Shown here piece after piece: positions 26,785 through 61,437 of a stretch of DNA of 64,000 nucleotides (its first letter is position 1; every line of letters begins with the position of its first letter). Made by a program: the position numbers and the translations under genes. The stretch covers positions 1-64,000 of the forward strand of contig CANBSP010000004.1 of assembly GCA_947372165.1 (NCBI GenBank), written 5' to 3'. Source of the stretch: Actinomycetota bacterium (GTDB taxonomy: Bacteria > Actinomycetota > Actinomycetes > Nanopelagicales > Nanopelagicaceae). The notes under the pieces were generated by a model. That model was not told where the DNA came from. It was given only the letters and a program-made list of their open reading frames with translations, and did no database searches.

Positions 26785-28488
26785 ATGTCAGAGCCATTAA
26801 ATCCAGAAAATCCAGTAAATCCGATGAAGCCTCGTTCTGGTCTGGTTACTGATGGCCTCGAACGCGCACCTGCTCGCGGAATGCTCCGCGCTGTTGGAAT
26901 GCAAGATGCAGATTTTAAGAAGCCACAGATCGGAATCGCTTCCTCGTGGAATGAAATTACGCCGTGCAATCTCTCACTCGATCGCTTGGCAAAAGCATCT
27001 CGCAAAGGCGTGATTGATGCTGGCGGATTCCCGATGCAGTTCGGAACTATCTCCGTATCTGATGGCATCTCGATGGGCCACGAAGGTATGCACTTCTCAC
27101 TCGTCTCACGTGAAGTTATTGCCGATTCAGTCGAGACAGTGATGCAGGCCGAACGCCTTGACGGCATGGTGACCTTTGCTGGTTGCGATAAATCTCTGCC
27201 CGGCATGATGATGGCTGCAGCTCGTATCGATGTCGCAAGCGTCTTTGTTTACGCAGGCTCTACCCTCGCCGGCCAAGTTGATGGTCGCGATGTCACGATC
27301 ATTGATGCCTTTGAAGCTGTTGGCGCATGTGCACGTGGCCTCATTAGCCAAGAGAAGGTTGATGAGATCGAACGCGCCATCTGCCCAGGTGAAGGCGCTT
27401 GTGGCGGTATGTATACCGCGAACACCATGGCAGCCGTTGGTGAAGCGATTGGTCTCTCTCTTCCAGGATCGGCATCACCCGCCGCAGTAGATCGCCGCCG
27501 TGACGACTATGCCGTGAAATCTGGCGCAGCCGTTGTCGAACTTATTCGCAAAGGAATCACAACTCGGGATATCTTGACTAAGAAAGCCTTTGAAAATGCG
27601 ATCACTGTTGTGATGGCACTTGGTGGTTCGACCAACGCAGTCCTTCATCTTTTGGCGATCGCCAATGAAGCAGAAGTAGATCTCACCCTTGCTGATTTCC
27701 AGCGGATCAGCGAGCGCACACCACTGCTCGGCGATCTCAAGCCATTTGGAAAGTACGTCATGACCGATATCGATCGCGTCGGCGGAATCCCTGTCGTTCT
27801 TCGCGCACTTCTCGATGCTGGCTTCTTACATGGCGATTGCCTTACCGTCACTGGTAAGACCATGGCTGAGAACCTTGCCGACATCACACCACTTGATCCA
27901 GATGGCGATGTCTTGCATGCAATCAAGAGCCCACTCTCTGCTGGCGGCGGCATCACCATTCTTGGTGGATCACTCGCCCCAGAAGGAGCGGTCTGCAAGA
28001 CGGCCGGTGTTGACGTTGATACATTTGAAGGACCAGCTCGCGTCTTCGAACGTGAACAAGCTGCGATGGCGGCACTGGAGAATGGCACGATCCAGGCAGG
28101 TGATGTCATCGTGATCCGTTACGAAGGTCCAAAGGGTGGGCCTGGAATGCGCGAGATGTTGATGATCACTGGCGCCATCAAGGGTGCAGGTCTTGGTAAG
28201 ACCACCTTGCTCTTAACTGATGGTCGTTTCTCAGGTGGATCGACTGGACTCTGCGTTGGCCACGTCGCACCAGAGGCGGTCGATGGGGGACCAATCGCAT
28301 TTGTCGAAGATGGCGATATCGTCCGAATCGATATCTCAGCCCGCACCTTGGATCTCTTGGTGGATGAATCTGTCCTGGCCGAACGTCGCAAGCATTTCTC
28401 ACCGATTCCTCATAAGTACAAGCGGGGCGTATTGGCGAAGTATTCAAAGGTCGTGGGGAGTGCGAGTCAGGGAGCCGTCACTAGTTGA
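26785..28488 (+). CDS. ilvD: Dihydroxy-acid dehydratase
   Basis: Iron-sulfur dehydratase, third step of valine and isoleucine synthesis. The cluster-ligand cysteines are in [18 protein letters not shown] and [14 protein letters not shown]. At 567 residues it belongs to the usual IlvD group. It has a good ribosome binding site overlapping the end of gatB and so may be read through from gatCAB. Its last codons lie in a 17-base sequence that is repeated 34 bases downstream (see repeat). Confidence 0.96.
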
Positions 28489-28520
28489 GGCGACCAAAGT
28501 AGAGGGAGCCGTCACTAGTT
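28470..28520 (+). repeat. 17-base direct repeat spanning the ilvD stop codon
   Basis: GGGAGCCGTCACTAGTT occurs at 28470-28486 (final ilvD codons, followed by TGA) and again at 28504-28520, 34 bases apart. This looks like a recent tandem duplication of a 34-base unit that placed a second copy of the gene end in the intergenic region. Confidence 0.85.
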
Positions 28521-28551
28521 AATCTCACAGGGATAGCACCCGCTCAAATAA

Positions 28552-28567
28552 TGAGATCTGTATCTCA
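28552..28567. promoter_or_regulatory. Palindrome upstream of the ilvB promoter
   Basis: TGAGAT-CTGT-ATCTCA is a perfect 16-base inverted repeat ending 4 bases before the -35 box. That position fits an operator for an activator or repressor of the ilvB operon. It lacks a T tract and so is not a terminator for ilvD. The binding protein is unknown. Confidence 0.45.
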
Positions 28568-28571
28568 GGGG

Positions 28572-28600
28572 TTGACTACCTCTAGCGCGTCAGCGAGAAT
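28572..28600 (+). promoter_or_regulatory. ilvB operon promoter
   Basis: TTGACT (28572-28577), a 17-base spacer and GAGAAT (28595-28600) form the best -35/-10 pair in the window. The predicted start lies 6-7 bases later, at the A of the leader peptide ATG. Confidence 0.7.
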
Positions 28601-28606
28601 TAGCCC

Positions 28607-28645
28607 ATGACATCATCAGTGGTGATTCGAGAGCGCGCGATCTAG
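28607..28645 (+). CDS. ilvB operon leader peptide (attenuator)
   Basis: A 12-residue ORF, MTSSVVIRERAI, with consecutive Val-Val-Ile codons and a final Ile, which are end products of the downstream pathway. It begins at the predicted transcription start with no ribosome binding site. It is followed by a compact hairpin and then a terminator ahead of ilvB. Such leader peptides are known for ilvB in corynebacteria and predicted in other actinobacteria, including leaderless initiation in Corynebacterium glutamicum. Expected role: ribosome stalling at Val/Ile codons when those amino acids are scarce, permitting read-through. Confidence 0.75.
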   Translation: MTSSVVIRERAI

Positions 28646-28654
28646 TCTGACTAG
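28642..28654 (+). promoter_or_regulatory. Pause or competing hairpin in the ilvB leader
   Basis: CTAGT-CTG-ACTAG forms a perfect 5-base-pair hairpin overlapping the leader stop codon. It is flanked by AGCGC (28632-28636) and GCGCT (28660-28664), which can extend the structure up to the base before the terminator. A ribosome on the leader peptide would disrupt it. Confidence 0.55.
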
Positions 28655-28664
28655 AACGTGCGCT

Positions 28665-28697
28665 ACCCCTCAGTGGAAAAACTGAGGGGTTTCTCAT
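28665..28697 (+). terminator. ilvB attenuator terminator
   Basis: A perfect 10-base-pair stem ACCCCTCAGT/ACTGAGGGGT with loop GGAAAA is followed by TTCTCATTT. It lies between the leader peptide and ilvB, so it would cut transcription of the operon when the leader is freely translated. Confidence 0.85.
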
Positions 28698-28760
28698 TTA
28701 CCCAGTGAATTCAGGTAAGCAAGTCATGGAAAGTAACCAGAGCGACGGAAGGAGATGAAT

Positions 28761-30500
28761 ATGAGTGAAGAGATGACAGGGGCACAGTCCCTCGTGAAAT
28801 CTTTGGAGCGCGCAGGCGTTGAAGTCATGTTCGGTATTCCTGGTGGCGCGATCTTGCCTGCTTATGATCCGATCTTTGATTCGAAGATTCGCCATATCCT
28901 CGTACGCCACGAGCAAGGTGCTGGCCATGCTGCTACTGGATATGCCCAGGCAACTGGTCGAGTTGGTGTCTGTATCGCGACATCCGGTCCAGGTGCAACC
29001 AACCTGGTGACTCCACTTGCTGATGCTCAGATGGATTCGGTCCCAGTTGTTGCTATCACTGGTCAAGTCTCATCGGGTGCAATCGGAACTGACGCCTTCC
29101 AAGAAGCTGATATCCGTGGCATCACGATGCCAGTGACCAAGCACAACTTCTTAGTCACCGATCCAAAAGATATTCCGCGCGCGATCGCTGAGGCATTCCA
29201 TATCGCAGAGTCAGGTCGCCCGGGCGCAGTCCTTGTCGATATTGCCAAAGATGCACTGCAGCTCAACACCACCTTTGATTATCCAACAACGATCAACCTC
29301 GCCGGCTATAAGCCAGTGATGCATCCAACCGCTGACGCGGTTCGCGACGCAGCGGCGTTAATCGCGCAATCAACCTCACCAGTCCTTTATGTTGGTGGCG
29401 GCGTCATCAAGTCCAACGCCTATAAAGAGTTGATGGAACTGGCCGAACTTACTGGGGCACCTGTTGTCACCACTCTCATGGCTCTTGGTTCATTCCCAGA
29501 TAGCCATCCACAACATCTTGGTATGCCAGGAATGCACGGAACTGTTGCTGCTGTTACTGCGCTCCAAAAGTCTGATCTGCTCATCACCTTGGGCGCTCGT
29601 TTTGATGATCGCGTCACCGGCAAACTCTCGACCTTTGCGCCCCACGCCAAGATCATCCACGCCGATATCGATCCTGCTGAAATCGGTAAGAATCGCAAGG
29701 TTGATATCGCACTTCTTGGTGACCTTCGAAACAGCATTGCAGCGCTACTTCCAGAGCTGCGGGCAGCCTTCGCTAAGAGCAAGCCTGACCTCACTGGTTG
29801 GTGGAAGACGGTCAATGAGTGGCGCACACAATTCCCACTCGGATTTGATGAGCCAGATGATGGTTCGCTCTCACCTCAATATGTCATTCAACGTCTTGGC
29901 CAGATCGCCGGACCTGATGCGATCTATACCGCTGGTGTGGGCCAACATCAGATGTGGTCATCACAATTTATTAATTACGAGAAGCCTCGCACCTGGTTGA
30001 ACTCTGGCGGTCTCGGAACCATGGGTTATGCAGTTCCTGCTGCGATGGGTGCAAAAGTTGGCGCGCCCGACAAAGTCGTATGGGCGATTGATGGCGATGG
30101 TTGCTTCCAGATGACGAATCAAGAGCTCGTTACCTGTGCTCTGAACAATATTCCGATCAAGGTCGCGATCATCAATAATGAATCTCTTGGCATGGTTCGC
30201 CAATGGCAGACCCTCTTCTATAACCAGAGATACTCAAATACCGAACTTCACTCAAAGCGCATCCCTGACTTTGCAAAGTTAGGTGAAGCGATGGGATGCG
30301 TCGGACTTCGTGCCGAGCGCAAGGAAGATGTCGATCGAGTCATCAATGAAGCGATGGCGATTAATGATCGCCCCGTTGTTATTGACTTCTCGGTTCATCG
30401 TGATGCGATGGTCTGGCCGATGGTCGCTGCAGGTGCATCAAATGATCTGATTACAGTCGCGCGCTCGATGGCGCCGGTCTGGGATTCACAGGAGCTCTAA
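28761..30500 (+). CDS. ilvB: Acetolactate synthase large subunit
   Basis: Thiamine-diphosphate enzyme condensing pyruvate with pyruvate or 2-ketobutyrate, first common step of branched-chain amino acid synthesis. The catalytic glutamate is at about residue 51 (VRHEQGAGH). The ThDP motif runs from GDG near 445 to INN about 28 residues later. I chose the second in-frame ATG because GGAAGGAG ends 6 bases before it; the ATG at 28755 abuts the ribosome binding site. This gives 579 residues. It shares one base with ilvN. Confidence 0.96.
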
Positions 30501-31003
30501 TGTCACAGAAACATACGCTCTCCGTCCTCGTTGAAAATAGCCCTGGCGTTTTGGCTCGTATCGCATCGCTCTTCTCGCGTCGCGGTTACAACATTGATTC
30601 ACTCGCCGTGGGACCAACTGAGAATCCAGATATCTCTCGCATGACGATCGTGATCGAAGTTGAAGGACATGCCCTGGAGCAAGTGATCGCTCAACTCGAT
30701 AAGTTGATCAATGTCATCTCTATTACCCAGCTAGATCCTGTGACCTCAGTCCAGCGCGAGCTCTTGCTCGTCAAGGTAGCAACGACTCCTGAGAACCGCT
30801 CTCAAGTCCTTGAAACCGTTCAATTATTCCGTGCCAAGGTCGTCGACGTCGCGCAAGATGCCGTCACAATCGAGGCAACCGGAAATGCCGAAAAGATCCA
30901 AGCGCTCTTACGAGTTCTTGAGCCGTACGGCATTAAGGAATTAGTCCAGTCGGGGCTTGTCGCAATGGAGCGCGGGCTACGCATTACCGAGAAGTTCAAT
31001 TAA
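30500..31003 (+). CDS. ilvN: Acetolactate synthase small regulatory subunit
   Basis: Regulatory partner of IlvB that confers valine feedback inhibition. The N-terminal ACT domain begins HTLSVLVENSPGVLARIASLF (about 4-75), followed by the ALS small-subunit C-terminal domain ending in ALLRVLEPYGIKELVQSG. At 167 residues it is the standard actinobacterial size. The start overlaps the ilvB stop by one base (TAATG), coupling the two subunits. Confidence 0.96.
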   Translation: MSQKHTLSVLVENSPGVLARIASLFSRRGYNIDSLAVGPTENPDISRMTIVIEVEGHALEQVIAQLDKLINVISITQLDPVTSVQRELLLVKVATTPENRSQVLETVQLFRAKVVDVAQDAVTIEATGNAEKIQALLRVLEPYGIKELVQSGLVAMERGLRITEKFN

Positions 31004-33655
<2,652 letters not shown>

Positions 33656-33656
<1 letters not shown>

Positions 33657-34696
33657 TGGCTTCATATAAATTAGCGGTCATCCCTGGCGATGGCATTGGT
33701 CCAGAAGTAGTCCCCGAAGGGCTCAAAGTATTGGATGTCGTTGCTGCAAAGCATGGCCTCACCTTTGAGAAGACCGAGTATGAACTCGGTGCCAAGTACT
33801 GGCATAAGACAGGGGAGACCCTGCCGGAGTCGGTAATGGCTGACTTGGCTAAGGCCGACGTAATCTTGCTTGGCGCAGTGGGAGATCCAACTGTCCCAAG
33901 TGGCGTTCTCGAGCGGGGCCTCTTGCTCAAGCTTCGCTTCGCCTTCGATCATTACATCAACCTTCGCCCAACCAAGCTCTATCCAGGAGTGGCATCGCCA
34001 CTTCGCGATCCAGGCGAGGTTGATTTCATCGTTGTTCGTGAAGGAACCGAAGGCCCATATATCGGTGCTGGTGGAGTTCTTGCTCTTGGTACTGAGAATG
34101 AGATTGCGACCGAAGAGAGCATTAATACTCGCCGCGGTGCAGAACGGACCATTCGTTATGCCTTTGAGCGTGCGATGGAACGTCCTCGTAAGAAGGTCAC
34201 TCTCGTTCATAAGAACAATGTGCTCACACGCGCAGGAAGTCTCTGGACTCGCGCCTTCAATGATGTGGCGAAAGAGTATCCGTCGATCACCACTGATTAC
34301 ATCCACGTTGATGCAGCAGCAATGTTCTTTGTTACCCAACCTCATCGCTTTGATGTTGTTGTAACAGACAATCTCTTCGGTGACATCATCACCGATATCG
34401 CAGCCGCTATCAGCGGTGGCATCGGTCTTGCAGCATCGGGCAATATCAACCCAACTCGCAAGTTCCCATCAATGTTCGAACCGATCCATGGATCAGCTCC
34501 TGATATTGCTGGCAAGGGTTTGGCAGATCCAACTGCGACAATCTCATCTGTCGCCATGATGCTCGGCCACCTTGGCCATCACGAGGCAGCAGCAGAGATT
34601 GCAGTGGCAGTAACTACCGATCTTGAAAACCGTAATGGCGTAAAGCGCAGTACATCTGAAGTTGGCACTGCAATCGCAGAATCACTGAGGGGCTAG
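33656..34696 (+). CDS. leuB: 3-isopropylmalate dehydrogenase
   Basis: Oxidative decarboxylase of leucine synthesis; the same enzyme family processes 3-methylmalate in the citramalate route to isoleucine. Family motifs include the N-terminal [20 protein letters not shown], and the catalytic-site [17 protein letters not shown]. At 346 residues it matches the actinobacterial group. The start overlaps the serA stop by one base. No leuA, leuC or leuD lies in the window, but cimA is two genes downstream. Confidence 0.95.
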
Positions 34697-34705
34697 TAAG
34701 CAGAA

Positions 34706-35791
34706 ATGAAGATCACTCTCACTCCGAACCAGAATCCCGTCGCTGATGCAGATCGTGCTGCAAAGATTGCCGAAGGTGGATTTGGTAAGTACTACACCGA
34801 CAATATGGTCGTTGCAGAGTGGAGTGAGGCAGCTGGTTGGCAGGATGCAGTGCTGAAGCCTTATGGGCCAATCACGCTAGATCCAGCGACAGCGGTTTTT
34901 CATTATGGCCAAGAGATCTTCGAAGGCATGAAGGCATATACCCAGCCGGATGGTTCGATCAGCCTCTTCCGCCCAGAAGCTAATGCTGCGCGTTTTGCAC
35001 GGTCGGCCGCTCGATTGGCGCTGCCTGAGATGCCCGTGGATTTCTTTGTCGAGACTGTTGAAGCTCTCGTTAAGCAAGATCGCAACTGGGTCCCCACCAA
35101 TGTTGGCGAATCTCTCTATATCCGCCCCTTCATGATCGCGACTGAAGTAGGTCTTGGCGTTCGGCCAAGCAATAAGGCGATGTACTTACTGATCGCAACA
35201 CCTGCCTCTGCTTACTTCAATCCAACAAAGGCGGTTACGGTCTGGATCAGCACCGAATATGTTCGCGCTGCACCTGGCGGAACCGGTGAAGCAAAGTGTG
35301 GCGGCAACTACGCAGCATCACTCGTCGCCCAGAAGCAGGCTGCGACACAAGGGTGTGACCAAGTTGTTTGGCTCGATGCGAATGAGCGCCGTTGGGTAGA
35401 AGAGATGGGCGGCATGAATCTTTACTTTGTAAAGGGAAGTGGCGATAACGCAACCATCGTGACACCAAAACTCACTGGCACTCTTCTTCCAGGAATTACT
35501 CGCGATTCAATTCTTACAGTCGCAGCCGATCTTGGTTACAAAGTCGAAGAGGTAATGCTCTCGATCGATGATTGGCGGGATGGCGTTGCATCTGGTGAGA
35601 TCACGGAAATTTTTGCTTGTGGAACAGCAGCTGTCGTCTCACCAATCGGTGCTGCCAAGAGTGCACATGGCACCTGGATGACCGGTGATGGCAACCCTGG
35701 TCCGATCACGGGCAAGATCCGCCAGACGCTTCTTGGAATTCAACACGGCACGATCGAAGATAAGCACGGCTGGAATAAGCGAGTCTGCTGA
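34706..35791 (+). CDS. ilvE: Branched-chain amino acid aminotransferase
   Basis: PLP enzyme of fold type IV that makes valine, leucine and isoleucine from their keto acids. The cofactor lysine is Lys197 in GTGEAKCGGNYAAS. The YIRPFMIATE and FACGTAAVVSPIG segments are typical. At 361 residues it fits group II BCATs. It follows leuB after 9 bases and shares one base with cimA, so it belongs to the same transcript. Confidence 0.96.
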   Translation: MKITLTPNQNPVADADRAAKIAEGGFGKYYTDNMVVAEWSEAAGWQDAVLKPYGPITLDPATAVFHYGQEIFEGMKAYTQPDGSISLFRPEANAARFARSAARLALPEMPVDFFVETVEALVKQDRNWVPTNVGESLYIRPFMIATEVGLGVRPSNKAMYLLIATPASAYFNPTKAVTVWISTEYVRAAPGGTGEAKCGGNYAASLVAQKQAATQGCDQVVWLDANERRWVEEMGGMNLYFVKGSGDNATIVTPKLTGTLLPGITRDSILTVAADLGYKVEEVMLSIDDWRDGVASGEITEIFACGTAAVVSPIGAAKSAHGTWMTGDGNPGPITGKIRQTLLGIQHGTIEDKHGWNKRVC

Positions 35792-37380
35792 TGCCAGTAT
35801 CCGATAACTTTCATATCTACGACACCACGCTTCGCGATGGTGCTCAGCAAGAGGGACTCAACCTCTCTGTTCATGACAAGATTGCGATTGCAAAACATCT
35901 CGATGACCTGGGTGTTGGATTTATCGAAGGTGGCTGGCCGGGAGCCAATCCCAAAGATACTGAGTTCTTTGCACGAGTAGCCAAAGAGGTGAAGTTTAAG
36001 AATGCGACTTTTGTAGCATTCGGCGCCACTCGCCGCCCTGGTGTGAAAGCGGCAGATGATGTACTCCTGCGAGCGCTCCAAGATTCAGAGGCCCCAGTCG
36101 TAACACTGGTTGCGAAGAGCCACGATCGCCACGTTGATTTAGCGCTCAAGACCAACCTTGATGAGAACCTCGCGATGATTAAGGATTCGATCGAATTCCT
36201 TCGTGCCGGTGGCCAGCGCGTCTTCTTGGATGCCGAACATTTCTTCGATGGCTACAAGTCCAACCAAGCCTATGCACTCGAAGTTATTCGCACTGCAATG
36301 GCAGCAGGTGCTGATGTCGCAGCGCTCTGCGATACCAATGGCGGGATGTTGCCTGATGAGCTCTCGCAGATCGTTCATGATGTCATTGAGGCATCGTCAG
36401 CAAGACTCGGAATCCATTGCCACAATGACACTGGCTGTGCAATTGCCAACTCACTCGCGGCCGTTGATGCTGGCGTCACCCATGTCCAAGGCACACTCAA
36501 TGGTTATGGCGAACGTACTGGAAATGCCGATCTGGTCTCGATCATTGCAAATCTAGAACTCAAGAAGAAGCAGCTTGTGCTTCCACCTGGATCGTTGCGC
36601 GAAGCCTTCCGCATCTCGCATGCCGTGGCTGAAGTTACGAATGTTGCACCATCACCACGTCAGCCATACGTTGGAGTATCAGCATTTGCCCATAAGGCCG
36701 GCCTTCATGCATCTGCAATCAAAGTCGACCCAATGCTTTATCAGCAAGAGAACCCTGAGTCGGTCGGAAACGATATGCGTATGTTGGTCTCAGAGATGGC
36801 TGGTCGCGCATCCATTGAATTGAAATCACTTGAATTGGGCATCGATCTCTCTGAGAATAAAGATGTCGTCACTCGCGTCGTCGAGCGTGTGAAAGAGATG
36901 GAATCTCGCGGATTTACCTTTGAAGCTGCAGATGCCTCATTCGAACTCTTGCTCCGAGAAGAGCTCGATGGCAAGCGCGCAAACTTCTTCACCATTGACG
37001 ATTGGCAGACCACGGTTAATCGGAATGAAGATGACCATGTGAGCTCGCAAGCAACTGTCACCATCACAGCCCGGGGCGAGAAGATTGTGGCAACCGGCTC
37101 TGGAAATGGTCCCGTGAATGCGATCGATACCGCACTTCGCACTGGCCTGGCTAAGTTCTATCCCGAACTCGAAAAGCTCACCCTCACTGATTACAAGGTT
37201 CGTATCCTTGAAGGCCGCCTAGGAACAGGTGCTATTACCCGAGTGCTCGTTGAGACCAGTGATGGCGTGGGCGAGTGGAGCACGATTGGCGTGCACGAGA
37301 ACGTGATCGCAGCATCTGCGATGGCACTTGAAGATGCTGTCACCTTCGGTTTACTACGCCAAGGACGCAAGCCAGAGTAG
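35791..37380 (+). CDS. cimA: (R)-citramalate synthase
   Basis: Condenses pyruvate with acetyl-CoA to citramalate, opening a threonine-independent route to 2-ketobutyrate and isoleucine. The DRE-TIM motif DTTLRDGAQQ lies at residues 11-20, with the metal-binding IHCHNDTG near 208. The segment EGGWPGANPKD separates this group from 2-isopropylmalate synthase. A C-terminal LeuA-type allosteric domain occupies about 400-520. At 529 residues it has the expected length. Its place beside leuB and ilvE supports the isoleucine role. Confidence 0.92.
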   Translation: MPVSDNFHIYDTTLRDGAQQEGLNLSVHDKIAIAKHLDDLGVGFIEGGWPGANPKDTEFFARVAKEVKFKNATFVAFGATRRPGVKAADDVLLRALQDSEAPVVTLVAKSHDRHVDLALKTNLDENLAMIKDSIEFLRAGGQRVFLDAEHFFDGYKSNQAYALEVIRTAMAAGADVAALCDTNGGMLPDELSQIVHDVIEASSARLGIHCHNDTGCAIANSLAAVDAGVTHVQGTLNGYGERTGNADLVSIIANLELKKKQLVLPPGSLREAFRISHAVAEVTNVAPSPRQPYVGVSAFAHKAGLHASAIKVDPMLYQQENPESVGNDMRMLVSEMAGRASIELKSLELGIDLSENKDVVTRVVERVKEMESRGFTFEAADASFELLLREELDGKRANFFTIDDWQTTVNRNEDDHVSSQATVTITARGEKIVATGSGNGPVNAIDTALRTGLAKFYPELEKLTLTDYKVRILEGRLGTGAITRVLVETSDGVGEWSTIGVHENVIAASAMALEDAVTFGLLRQGRKPE

Positions 37381-59220: not shown

Positions 59221-61437
59221 ATGGAGGGTCAAGATGTGAAGTTCGCCGTTGCAAAGATTGATAACGGTAAGTTTGGTAAGCGCGAGATCCGATTTGAAAC
59301 CGGCCGCCTCGCAAAGCAAGCAGCTGGAACAGCTGTCGTATATCTCGATGACGAGACTATGTTGCTCTCAGCAACAACTGCGTCAAAGAATCCCAAGGAT
59401 CAATTCGACTTCTTCCCACTTACAGTGGATGTTGAAGAGCGTATGTATGCAGCAGGAAAGATCCCAGGATCATTCTTCCGCCGCGAAGGTCGCCCTTCAG
59501 AAGATGCAATCCTTACCTGTCGTTTAATCGACCGTCCATTGCGCCCATCATTCGTCAAGGGTCTTCGCAATGAAGTTCAGATTGTTGTCACAGTGATGGC
59601 ACTGCACCCAGATCACATGTACGACGTACTTGCGATCAACGCAGCATCAATGTCGACTCAGCTCGCTGGTCTGCCATTCTCAGGTCCAATCGGTGGAGTG
59701 CGCGTTGCTCTTATCGAAGGCCAATGGGTTGCATTCCCTAACCACTCAGACCTCGAGAAGGCTACCTTCGACATGGTCGTTGCTGGACGCATCTCTGATG
59801 GTGACGTTGCAATCATGATGGTTGAAGCAGAAGCTACTTCTGAGACCATCAACCTCATCAAGAGTGGCGCAGGCGCACCAACTGAAGAGATTGTTGGACA
59901 AGGACTTGATGCCGCAAAGCCATTTATCCGTATTCTCTGTGAAGCACAGTCAGAACTCGCAAAGGTAGCTGCAAAGCCAACTGGCGAATTCCCTGTCTTC
60001 CTTGATTACCAGGATGATGTCTACAAGGTTGTTGAAGCAGCTGGCAAGGATTCGATCGCTAAGGCGCTCACCATCGCTGGCAAGCAAGAGCGCGAACTCG
60101 CACTCGATGCTGCTAACGAAGCAATCAAAGAGTCAGTAAACCCACAGTTCGAAGGTCGCGAGAAAGAAGTTTCTGCAGCGATTCGTTCAGTGACCAAGAA
60201 GGTTGTCCGTCAGCGCGTTCTTCGTGAGAAGATCCGTATCGATGGCCGTGGCTTGCGCGATATCCGTGCAATCACCGCAGAGGTTGAAGTTATTCCTCGC
60301 GTACACGGTTCAGCAATCTTCGAGCGCGGCGAGACTCAGATTCTCGGCGTCACAACTCTTAATATGCTGAAGATGGAACAGATGCTCGACACATTGAGCC
60401 CTGAGACAAATAAGCGTTACATGCACAACTACAACTTCCCGCCATACTCAGTAGGCGAGACCGGTCGTGTTGGATCACCTAAGCGTCGCGAAATCGGCCA
60501 TGGTGCTCTTGCAGAGCGTGCCCTTGTTCCAGTTCTTCCAACTCGCGAAGAGTTCCCTTATGCAATTCGTCAGGTCTCTGAAGCTCTTGGTTCAAATGGA
60601 TCAACCTCTATGGGTTCTGTCTGTGCATCAACCATGTCTCTTCTCAATGCAGGTGTGCCTCTTAAGGCCGCTGTCGCAGGTATCGCAATGGGCCTCATCT
60701 CAGATGATGTCGATGGCAAGACCGAGTACGTGGCTTTGACAGATATTCTCGGTGCAGAAGATGCATTCGGAGATATGGACTTCAAGGTTGCCGGAACTAA
60801 GGACTTTGTTACAGCACTCCAGCTCGATACTAAGCTTGATGGAATTCCTGCATCAGTTCTTGCTGCAGCGCTTCTCCAGGCGAAGGAAGCCCGTCTTTCA
60901 ATTCTCGACATCATGCTCTCAGCAATCGATGTTCCAGATGAGATGAGCCTCTTGGCTCCACGTATCATCTCGATCAAGGTCCCGGTTGACCTTATCGGTG
61001 CGATCATCGGACCTAAGGGCAAGATGATCAACCAGATCCAAGGCGATACAGGTGCTGATATCACTATCGAAGATGATGGAACGATCTACATCGGTGCACT
61101 CGAAGGCTCACAGGCCGAGGCTGCAAAGGCAATGATCGAAGCTATCGCAAACCCTGTAGTTCCAAAGGTTGGCGAGCGCTTCAACGGTTCTGTTGTGAAG
61201 CTTGCAACCTTCGGTGCCTTTATCTCACTCGTTCCTGGTAAAGATGGCTTGCTCCACATCTCGCAGATCCGCAAGATGCATGGTGGAAAGCGCATTGAGA
61301 ACCTCGAAGAGGTCATGAAGGTCGGCGAGAAGATTGAAGTTGAAATCGCAGAGATCGATCCAAAGGGTAAGTTCTCTTTGGTCGCGGTCATGCCTGATGG
61401 AACACTTTCATCTGCAGCTTCAGAAAAATCTGAATAA
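59221..61437 (+). CDS. pnp: Polyribonucleotide nucleotidyltransferase
   Basis: Phosphorolytic 3'-to-5' exoribonuclease and degradosome partner of RNase E. Two RNase PH domains (about 10-140 and 320-540) flank an all-helical domain, and KH ([15 protein letters not shown]) and S1 ([31 protein letters not shown]) domains end the protein. I chose the ATG beginning MEGQDVKF, with GGAG 6 bases upstream and a similar start in related actinobacteria (738 residues). An ATG at 59209 and a GTG at 59236 (with GGAGGG upstream) are alternatives. Confidence 0.96.

Follow-up and report, generated by a model that had tools for sequence, protein, structure and literature searches.

Candidate leaders and terminators located before ilvB were noted in three genera in 2005 (PMC1262725). 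In Corynebacterium glutamicum transcription begins one nucleotide away from the start codon of the leader, and the model proposed for this leader places hairpin H2 adjacent to the terminator, with a GCC trinucleotide in common between the two (PMC11857589). Valine-dependent read-through that needs translation of the leader has been reported for C. glutamicum (PMC11857589) and for Mycobacterium tuberculosis (PMC13236596). In the ilvB1NC leader of M. tuberculosis the exchange of LVVI for AAAA abolished induction, and a ribosome that has reached the stop codon keeps the antiterminator from forming (PMC13236596). The Streptomyces IlvL peptide MRTRILVLGKRVG, encoded before ilvBHC, has been reported to be leaderless (PMC8079986).

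The locus described here lies in the window, i.e. the whole stretch of 64,000 nucleotides analysed in this work, which comes from a genome of 1.36 Mb in 21 contigs. Its nearest named relatives, judged by IlvB, are uncultured freshwater actinobacteria, including records of 'Candidatus Nanopelagicaceae'. The gene order is gatA-gatB-ilvD-leader-ilvB-ilvN-ilvC-serA-leuB-ilvE-cimA. The first two genes are what we take to be gatA and gatB from a reading of their open reading frames, and NCBIfam confirmed ilvD together with the identities from ilvB to cimA given in the first-pass annotation. The features of the region are as follows.

28552..28567, no strand assigned: operator-like inverted repeat TGAGATCTGTATCTCA, 4 nt upstream of the -35 box of the ilvB leader (family conservation)
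28572..28577, + strand: -35 box TTGACT (sequence, promoter search)
28595..28600, + strand: -10 box GAGAAT, separated from the -35 box by a 17-nt spacer (sequence, promoter search)
28607..28645, + strand: leader peptide ORF MTSSVVIRERAI with its stop codon, predicted to be leaderless, with +1 at or beside the A of ATG (sequence)
28619..28627, + strand: regulatory codons GTG GTG ATT (Val5 Val6 Ile7), conserved in the family with synonymous changes of the Val codons
28632..28664, + strand: hairpin hp1, 33 nt, with zero gap to the terminator, predicted to require a ribosome no further along than the Val codons (folding, covariation, gap control)
28665..28690, + strand: intrinsic terminator stem-loop of 10 perfect base pairs, ACCCCTCAGT / ACTGAGGGGT, with the 6-nt loop GGAAAA
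28691..28700, + strand: U-rich tail TTTCTCATTT, including the last U of the stem
28755..30500, + strand: ilvB, acetolactate synthase large subunit (NF005860, 1076.8 bits)
30500..37380, + strand: ilvN, ilvC, serA, leuB, ilvE and cimA, tightly spaced (NCBIfam matches above cut-off)

The start codon of ilvB is probably the ATG at 28761 rather than that at 28755, with AGGAG located 6 nt upstream. The intergenic stretches from ilvN to cimA demonstrated no excess of promoters or terminators, and the tight spacing of the genes suggests that ilvB to cimA are co-transcribed. At the 3' end of ilvD (window positions 28468-28521) the short sequence AGGGAGCCGTCACTAGTT is directly duplicated, with a stop codon after each copy; L013 and L015 show comparable duplications.

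In the 401 bases at the leader two promoter-like sites were found against 0.3 expected, and one terminator-like site against 0.2 expected. The promoter, the 12-residue ORF at 28607 and the perfect 10-bp terminator listed in the first-pass annotation are all present on direct reading. The 'small hairpin' of that annotation is also present, but it is in fact a structure of 33 nt and approximately -20 kcal/mol, half of which lies inside the leader ORF and provides the 5' arm. The 94-nt leader folds with -45.3 kcal/mol in comparison to -23.5 kcal/mol for shuffled sequences (z = -6.06; none of 200 shuffles was equally stable). The U-tract TTTCTCATTT of the terminator is weak. Rfam covariance models run on the leader gave two chance matches far below their gathering scores, and no match to a T-box or ppGpp riboswitch.

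The anatomy of the leader, its conservation and covariation, the codon selection, the tuning of hp1 to ribosome position and a codon swap at cimA were computed in this work. The ilvB upstream regions of the window, of 20 further genomes of its genus and of 80 genomes of the Nanopelagicaceae-type family (101 in total) were used. The genomes are mostly metagenome-assembled. The family sequences are related, so the counts given below are not independent events. The whole module (promoter, leader ORF, hp1 and terminator) was detected by an automatic search in 96 of the 101 regions, the window included. In three regions missed by the search (L072, L074 and L093) the module was seen by eye, and in L053 it is interrupted by the contig end. 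The remaining region, L067 of genome G077, lacks the promoter, the leader ORF and the 5' half of hp1, so that ilvD runs directly into the 3' arm of hp1; this is a deletion or a misassembly. A covariance model of the leader gave one convincing match in the genome of the window. In one family genome it also gave two additional weak matches lying close together (G048:C9:59111-59174 and 60807-60906).

TTGA[CT] with a spacer of 17 or 18 nt is present in all 96 detected relatives, the TTGA[CT] motif being demanded by the search itself. In the window six bases, TAGCCC, separate the -10 box from the ATG of the leader. Across the family the automatic search found the start codon, counted as the first one whose ORF contains two or more branched-chain codons in succession, 6 nt after the -10 box in 81 of the 96 and 7 nt after it in eight more (89/96). 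Such spacing is expected if transcription begins at the start codon, and it supports the leaderless start claimed in the first-pass annotation. From this conserved promoter geometry the leader start codon is predicted to lie at or next to +1; with +1 at the ATG, a Shine-Dalgarno sequence would be impossible for the leader ORF. The parallel drawn earlier with Corynebacterium is apt in view of the position of the transcription start there.

The family leader peptides range from nine residues (MSTTFVVVI) to 30 (MRNALTARSISRRISGVVVVISVVIAGRAI), and Val, Ile and Leu together make up 43 % of the residues in the 56 distinct peptides. Loss of the Val/Ile codons with retention of the hairpin, named in advance as speaking against attenuation, is not the pattern seen, and the attenuation reading survives: 95 of the 96 detected relatives retain two or more branched-chain codons in a row next to hp1, with Val codons changing synonymously. 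The sole exception, MLSRISVRLERAS, contains branched-chain codons singly. The motif RERAI was considered as a conserved stalling peptide and ruled out, as it is missing in genera whose stop codon precedes hp1.

The position of hp1 is fixed on both sides. The last branched-chain codon lies 2-5 nt (about 4) before hp1 in 80 of 95 family members, whatever the peptide length. On the other side, with the terminator taken to include an outer A-U or G-U pair, the distance from hp1 to the terminator is 0 nt in 45 members, with an overlap of 1-3 nt in 41 and a gap of 1-3 nt in 9. A stable abutting hairpin was observed in 89.5 % of the family sequences and in 11.5 % when the sequence between the codons and the terminator was shuffled. 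In an alignment of 36 sequences, eight pairs of hp1 and the terminator were changed on both sides, in comparison to 3.5 in shuffles (0/500), and six of the eight belong to hp1. In the same alignment 91 % of the cells pair, versus 24-48 % in slid controls, and the CCC/GGG core of the terminator is invariant. The leaders of one genus group (MSTTFVVVI) reach their stop codon upstream of hp1, which argues that hp1 is conserved as RNA in its own right and the codons as codons.

The choice of Val codons points in the same direction as their conservation. GTG and GTA account for 159 of the 198 Val codons in the family leaders versus 280 of 928 in the family ilvB genes, and in high-GC Actinomycetes (named loci L243-L301) GTA accounts for 47 of 73 leader Val codons versus 27 of 1878 in ilvB. 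The choice of Val codons is thus under selection, which may favour codons read by minor tRNA-Val species.

Two covariance-model matches in one family of the class sample (f14) precede cimA rather than ilvB, and a second copy of the attenuator is present upstream of cimA in that family (L159, L161, L322-L328, L332 and L333). CimA feeds the isoleucine branch. The cimA leaders from nine genomes, exemplified by MTHFATIICERVG, MSTITIICERVG and MTIHRIIIARRVG, each followed by a stop codon, carry Ile runs (II or III) in place of the ILVV or ILVLV that this family has before ilvB; two of the nine start codons were assigned by eye and four leaders gave no automatic -35 call. The branched-chain runs comprise 12 Val/Leu and 3 Ile codons before ilvB and 1 Val/Leu and 21 Ile codons before cimA (Fisher p = 3e-6, only indicative since few, related sequences, three of ilvB and nine of cimA, were compared). 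No description of a cimA leader with such a swap was found in the literature searched. The Val/Leu-to-Ile swap and the preference for rare codons provide strong genome-based evidence that the codons act as the sensor.

The comparison was extended to 60 ilvB upstream regions from other families of Actinomycetes, scanned for a leaderless ORF with branched-chain codons. The scan tolerated imperfect terminator stems, was controlled with shuffled and reverse-complement sequences, and used a selection score in which folding energy was counted and abutment was not. The score exceeded the 98th percentile of shuffled sequence in 57 of 60 regions and in 10 of 60 of their reverse complements. The highest score of any control, shuffled or reverse-complement, was 16.0, below the 10th percentile of the real regions (17.6). 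A stable hairpin within 1 nt of the terminator was present in 50 of the 55 class leaders analysed, from 30 families, versus 22 % of shuffles. The Streptomyces IlvL was recovered in family f17 and in named Streptomyces loci, and the leaders of family f4 contain LLVVI. As judged from these genome sequences, the attenuator type is conserved across the class Actinomycetes.

The leader was modelled with a ribosome footprint of 26 nt, as used for M. tuberculosis (PMC13236596), and half-footprints of 12-13 nt. A ribosome on Val5 leaves hp1 with -15 to -20 kcal/mol; this shrinks to -8 to -10 kcal/mol for Val6 and to about -4.6 kcal/mol for Ile7, and nothing is left (0) when the ribosome is at the stop codon. 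Thus hp1 is nearly intact, half gone and nearly gone over codons 5-7, at which the first-pass annotation had proposed to place the ribosome, and it is absent in the window from Arg8/Glu9 to the stop codon. The family medians follow the same series, and a footprint half-width of 15 moves it by one codon. The fall in stability across Val5-Ile7 means that, over precisely the regulatory codons, hp1 registers where the ribosome stands.

No convincing antiterminator had been found in the first-pass annotation, and folding with ribosome footprints and forced extension of hp1 leads to the same result. Folding of the nascent transcript with and without a ribosome identified no structure other than hp1 that switches with ribosome position, and with the ribosome on Val no upstream segment pairs with the 5' arm of the terminator. 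Therefore hp1 should be the antiterminator element, like H2 of the C. glutamicum model. Two further features were considered and dropped: a pairing between the GUG GUG codons and the hp1 3' arm (GUGGUG/CGCUAC), which leaves the terminator untouched, and a UCAGU repeat common to the leader and the terminator, which is missing in other genera.

Taken together, the element is very likely a ribosome-mediated transcription attenuator of the ilvB operon that responds to charged branched-chain tRNAs, with a leaderless start and with read-through through abutment of hp1 forming part of this reading. The leader probably senses a shortage of valine and isoleucine by ribosome stalling on the 12-residue peptide. 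RNA polymerase would start at the ATG, and a ribosome would load on the bare 5' AUG and translate the 12 codons. With charged Val- and Ile-tRNA plentiful, the ribosome would reach UAG and cover the 5' side of hp1, leaving the terminator to fold freely and transcription to stop at about position 28695. With charged Val- and Ile-tRNA scarce, the ribosome would stall on Val5 or Val6, the downstream edge of its footprint would fall at the base of hp1, and hp1 would form. Lying against the base of the terminator in the exit channel, hp1 would hinder full closure beside the short U-tract, and RNA polymerase would continue into ilvB past the incompletely closed terminator. The leaderless start and the translation of the leader are presumed, as is read-through driven by hp1 through abutment instead of strand overlap.

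The inverted repeat upstream of the -35 box bears on a different level of control. Of the 12 positions of TGAGATN4ATCTCA, 10 or more match in 83 of the 96 family members and in only 4 of 2020 shuffles, and the distance of the repeat to the -35 box is 4 nt in 69 of 96. Within the genome of the window the ilvB copy is the only intact one located between genes. The presence of such an operator-like repeat points to possible regulation of initiation as well. NdgR/LtbR was ruled out as the owner of the repeat because TGAGATN4ATCTCA does not fit the published 15-bp consensus [GT]T[CT]CAC...GGAC (PMC4340878, PMC8222616). In most of the genus (L302-L318) a TGAGATACTTA-like element, equal to half of the ilvB repeat, lies approximately 80-120 nt 5' of the homoserine dehydrogenase gene; a second operator site at this gene was ruled out, as relatives keep one half only.

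How hp1 could act on the terminator admits more than one explanation. In the model proposed for C. glutamicum ilvBNC, H2 and the terminator (H3), corresponding to hp1 and the terminator here, compete for the boundary nucleotides by branch migration, and the shared GCC has mutational support there (PMC11857589). Transfer of this model to the family is possible but doubtful: hp1 taking 1-3 nt of the terminator G-C core is favoured by at least 1 kcal/mol in 30 of 96 members, whereas forcing hp1 into the core is unfavourable or impossible in 63 members, the window and its genus among them, and the best hp1 in the window stops at the base adjoining the terminator. The absence of a favourable overlap in these 63 makes abutment, or contact, the conserved feature. 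The stalled ribosome might itself block terminator folding, with hp1 acting as a spacer that reels in the RNA between the ribosome and the polymerase. With approximately 4 nt between the codons and hp1 and no gap between hp1 and the terminator, the edge of the ribosome would indeed come to lie at the terminator base only if hp1 forms; however, in the window the stop codon would place a ribosome about 7-9 nt from that base, where it should interfere too, and this explanation is unlikely. Contact of hp1 blocking complete closure of the terminator is preferred, with the stalled ribosome as its chief competitor. For the ilvB attenuators of Actinomycetes, and in one family those of cimA, we suggest tentatively that the mode of action may be steric abutment at the exit channel of RNA polymerase, with no shared base pairs and no classical antiterminator, and with a chance somewhat short of even that this is correct. 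How antitermination works here, where abutment is conserved and overlap is not, is a sharp question that can be tested.

Explanations that dispense with the ribosome fare worse. It is hardly credible that the hairpins serve to bind a ligand or a protein, as in a ppGpp riboswitch or a LEU-type element, and that the short ORF is incidental. The hp1 nucleotides are strongly conserved, and other ilvB leaders carry ppGpp riboswitches according to work cited in PMC10272879; against this stand the lack of an Rfam match, the conservation at the level of codons, the biased choice of Val codons and the change to Ile at cimA. The related ilvB-II RNA of Corynebacterium gave no structural response to ppGpp (PMC10272879). 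A constitutive partial terminator combined with regulation of initiation through the repeat at 28552-28567 is very improbable: it would account for the conservation and the fixed distance of the repeat, but leaves the conserved codons, the tuning of hp1 and the class-wide attenuator unexplained. The attenuation reading that we prefer has points against it as well. At equilibrium hp1 and the terminator coexist, the 5' arm of the terminator is not sequestered, and hp1 of the window is barred from the core; the U-tract is weak and an operator-like repeat lies upstream. Furthermore, codon mutations in a candidate ilvB leader of S. coelicolor were without regulatory effect, according to work cited in PMC1262725.

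In its position before ilvB, its Val/Ile/Leu run and its hairpin followed by an intrinsic terminator, the locus belongs with the leaderless actinobacterial ilvB attenuators. It falls outside the classical trp-type definition, since no antiterminator that pairs with the terminator 5' arm and is mutually exclusive with the terminator was found. With the enterobacterial trp, his and ilv attenuators it shares regulatory codons, a leader ORF, an intrinsic terminator and the use of ribosome position as the sensor, and it differs from them in the absence of a 2:3 antiterminator pairing to the terminator 5' arm and in its predicted leaderless initiation. The M. tuberculosis ilvB1NC leader is similar in having an upstream ORF with branched-chain codons and a terminator before ilvB, but has been described with a mutually exclusive antiterminator; the LLVVI of family f4 resembles its LVVI as published. 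Streptomyces IlvL is leaderless, as the window leader is predicted to be, and has its branched-chain run directly 5' of a terminator-abutting hairpin, with a longer hp1 than the window. The closest parallel in detail is C. glutamicum ilvBNC (IlvL MTIIRLVVVTARRLP; three-hairpin model, PMC11857589; ilvB-II motif, PMC10272879), which also has branched-chain codons and an antiterminator hairpin beside the terminator before ilvB; its start codon about 1 nt after +1 and its lack of a ribosome binding site agree with what is predicted for the window. In the window the leader is far shorter, with ilvB approximately 150 nt after +1 versus 292 nt, and it has neither an anti-antiterminator nor a shared boundary trinucleotide. 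The evidence requires no new kind of system; what is new is the geometry fixed throughout the class, the bias in codon choice, the swap found at cimA and the lack of overlap. For very abundant, hard-to-culture freshwater bacteria this gives a complete and compact picture of amino-acid control, and the pieces described separately in Corynebacterium, Mycobacterium and Streptomyces come together as one conserved device with a fixed geometry.
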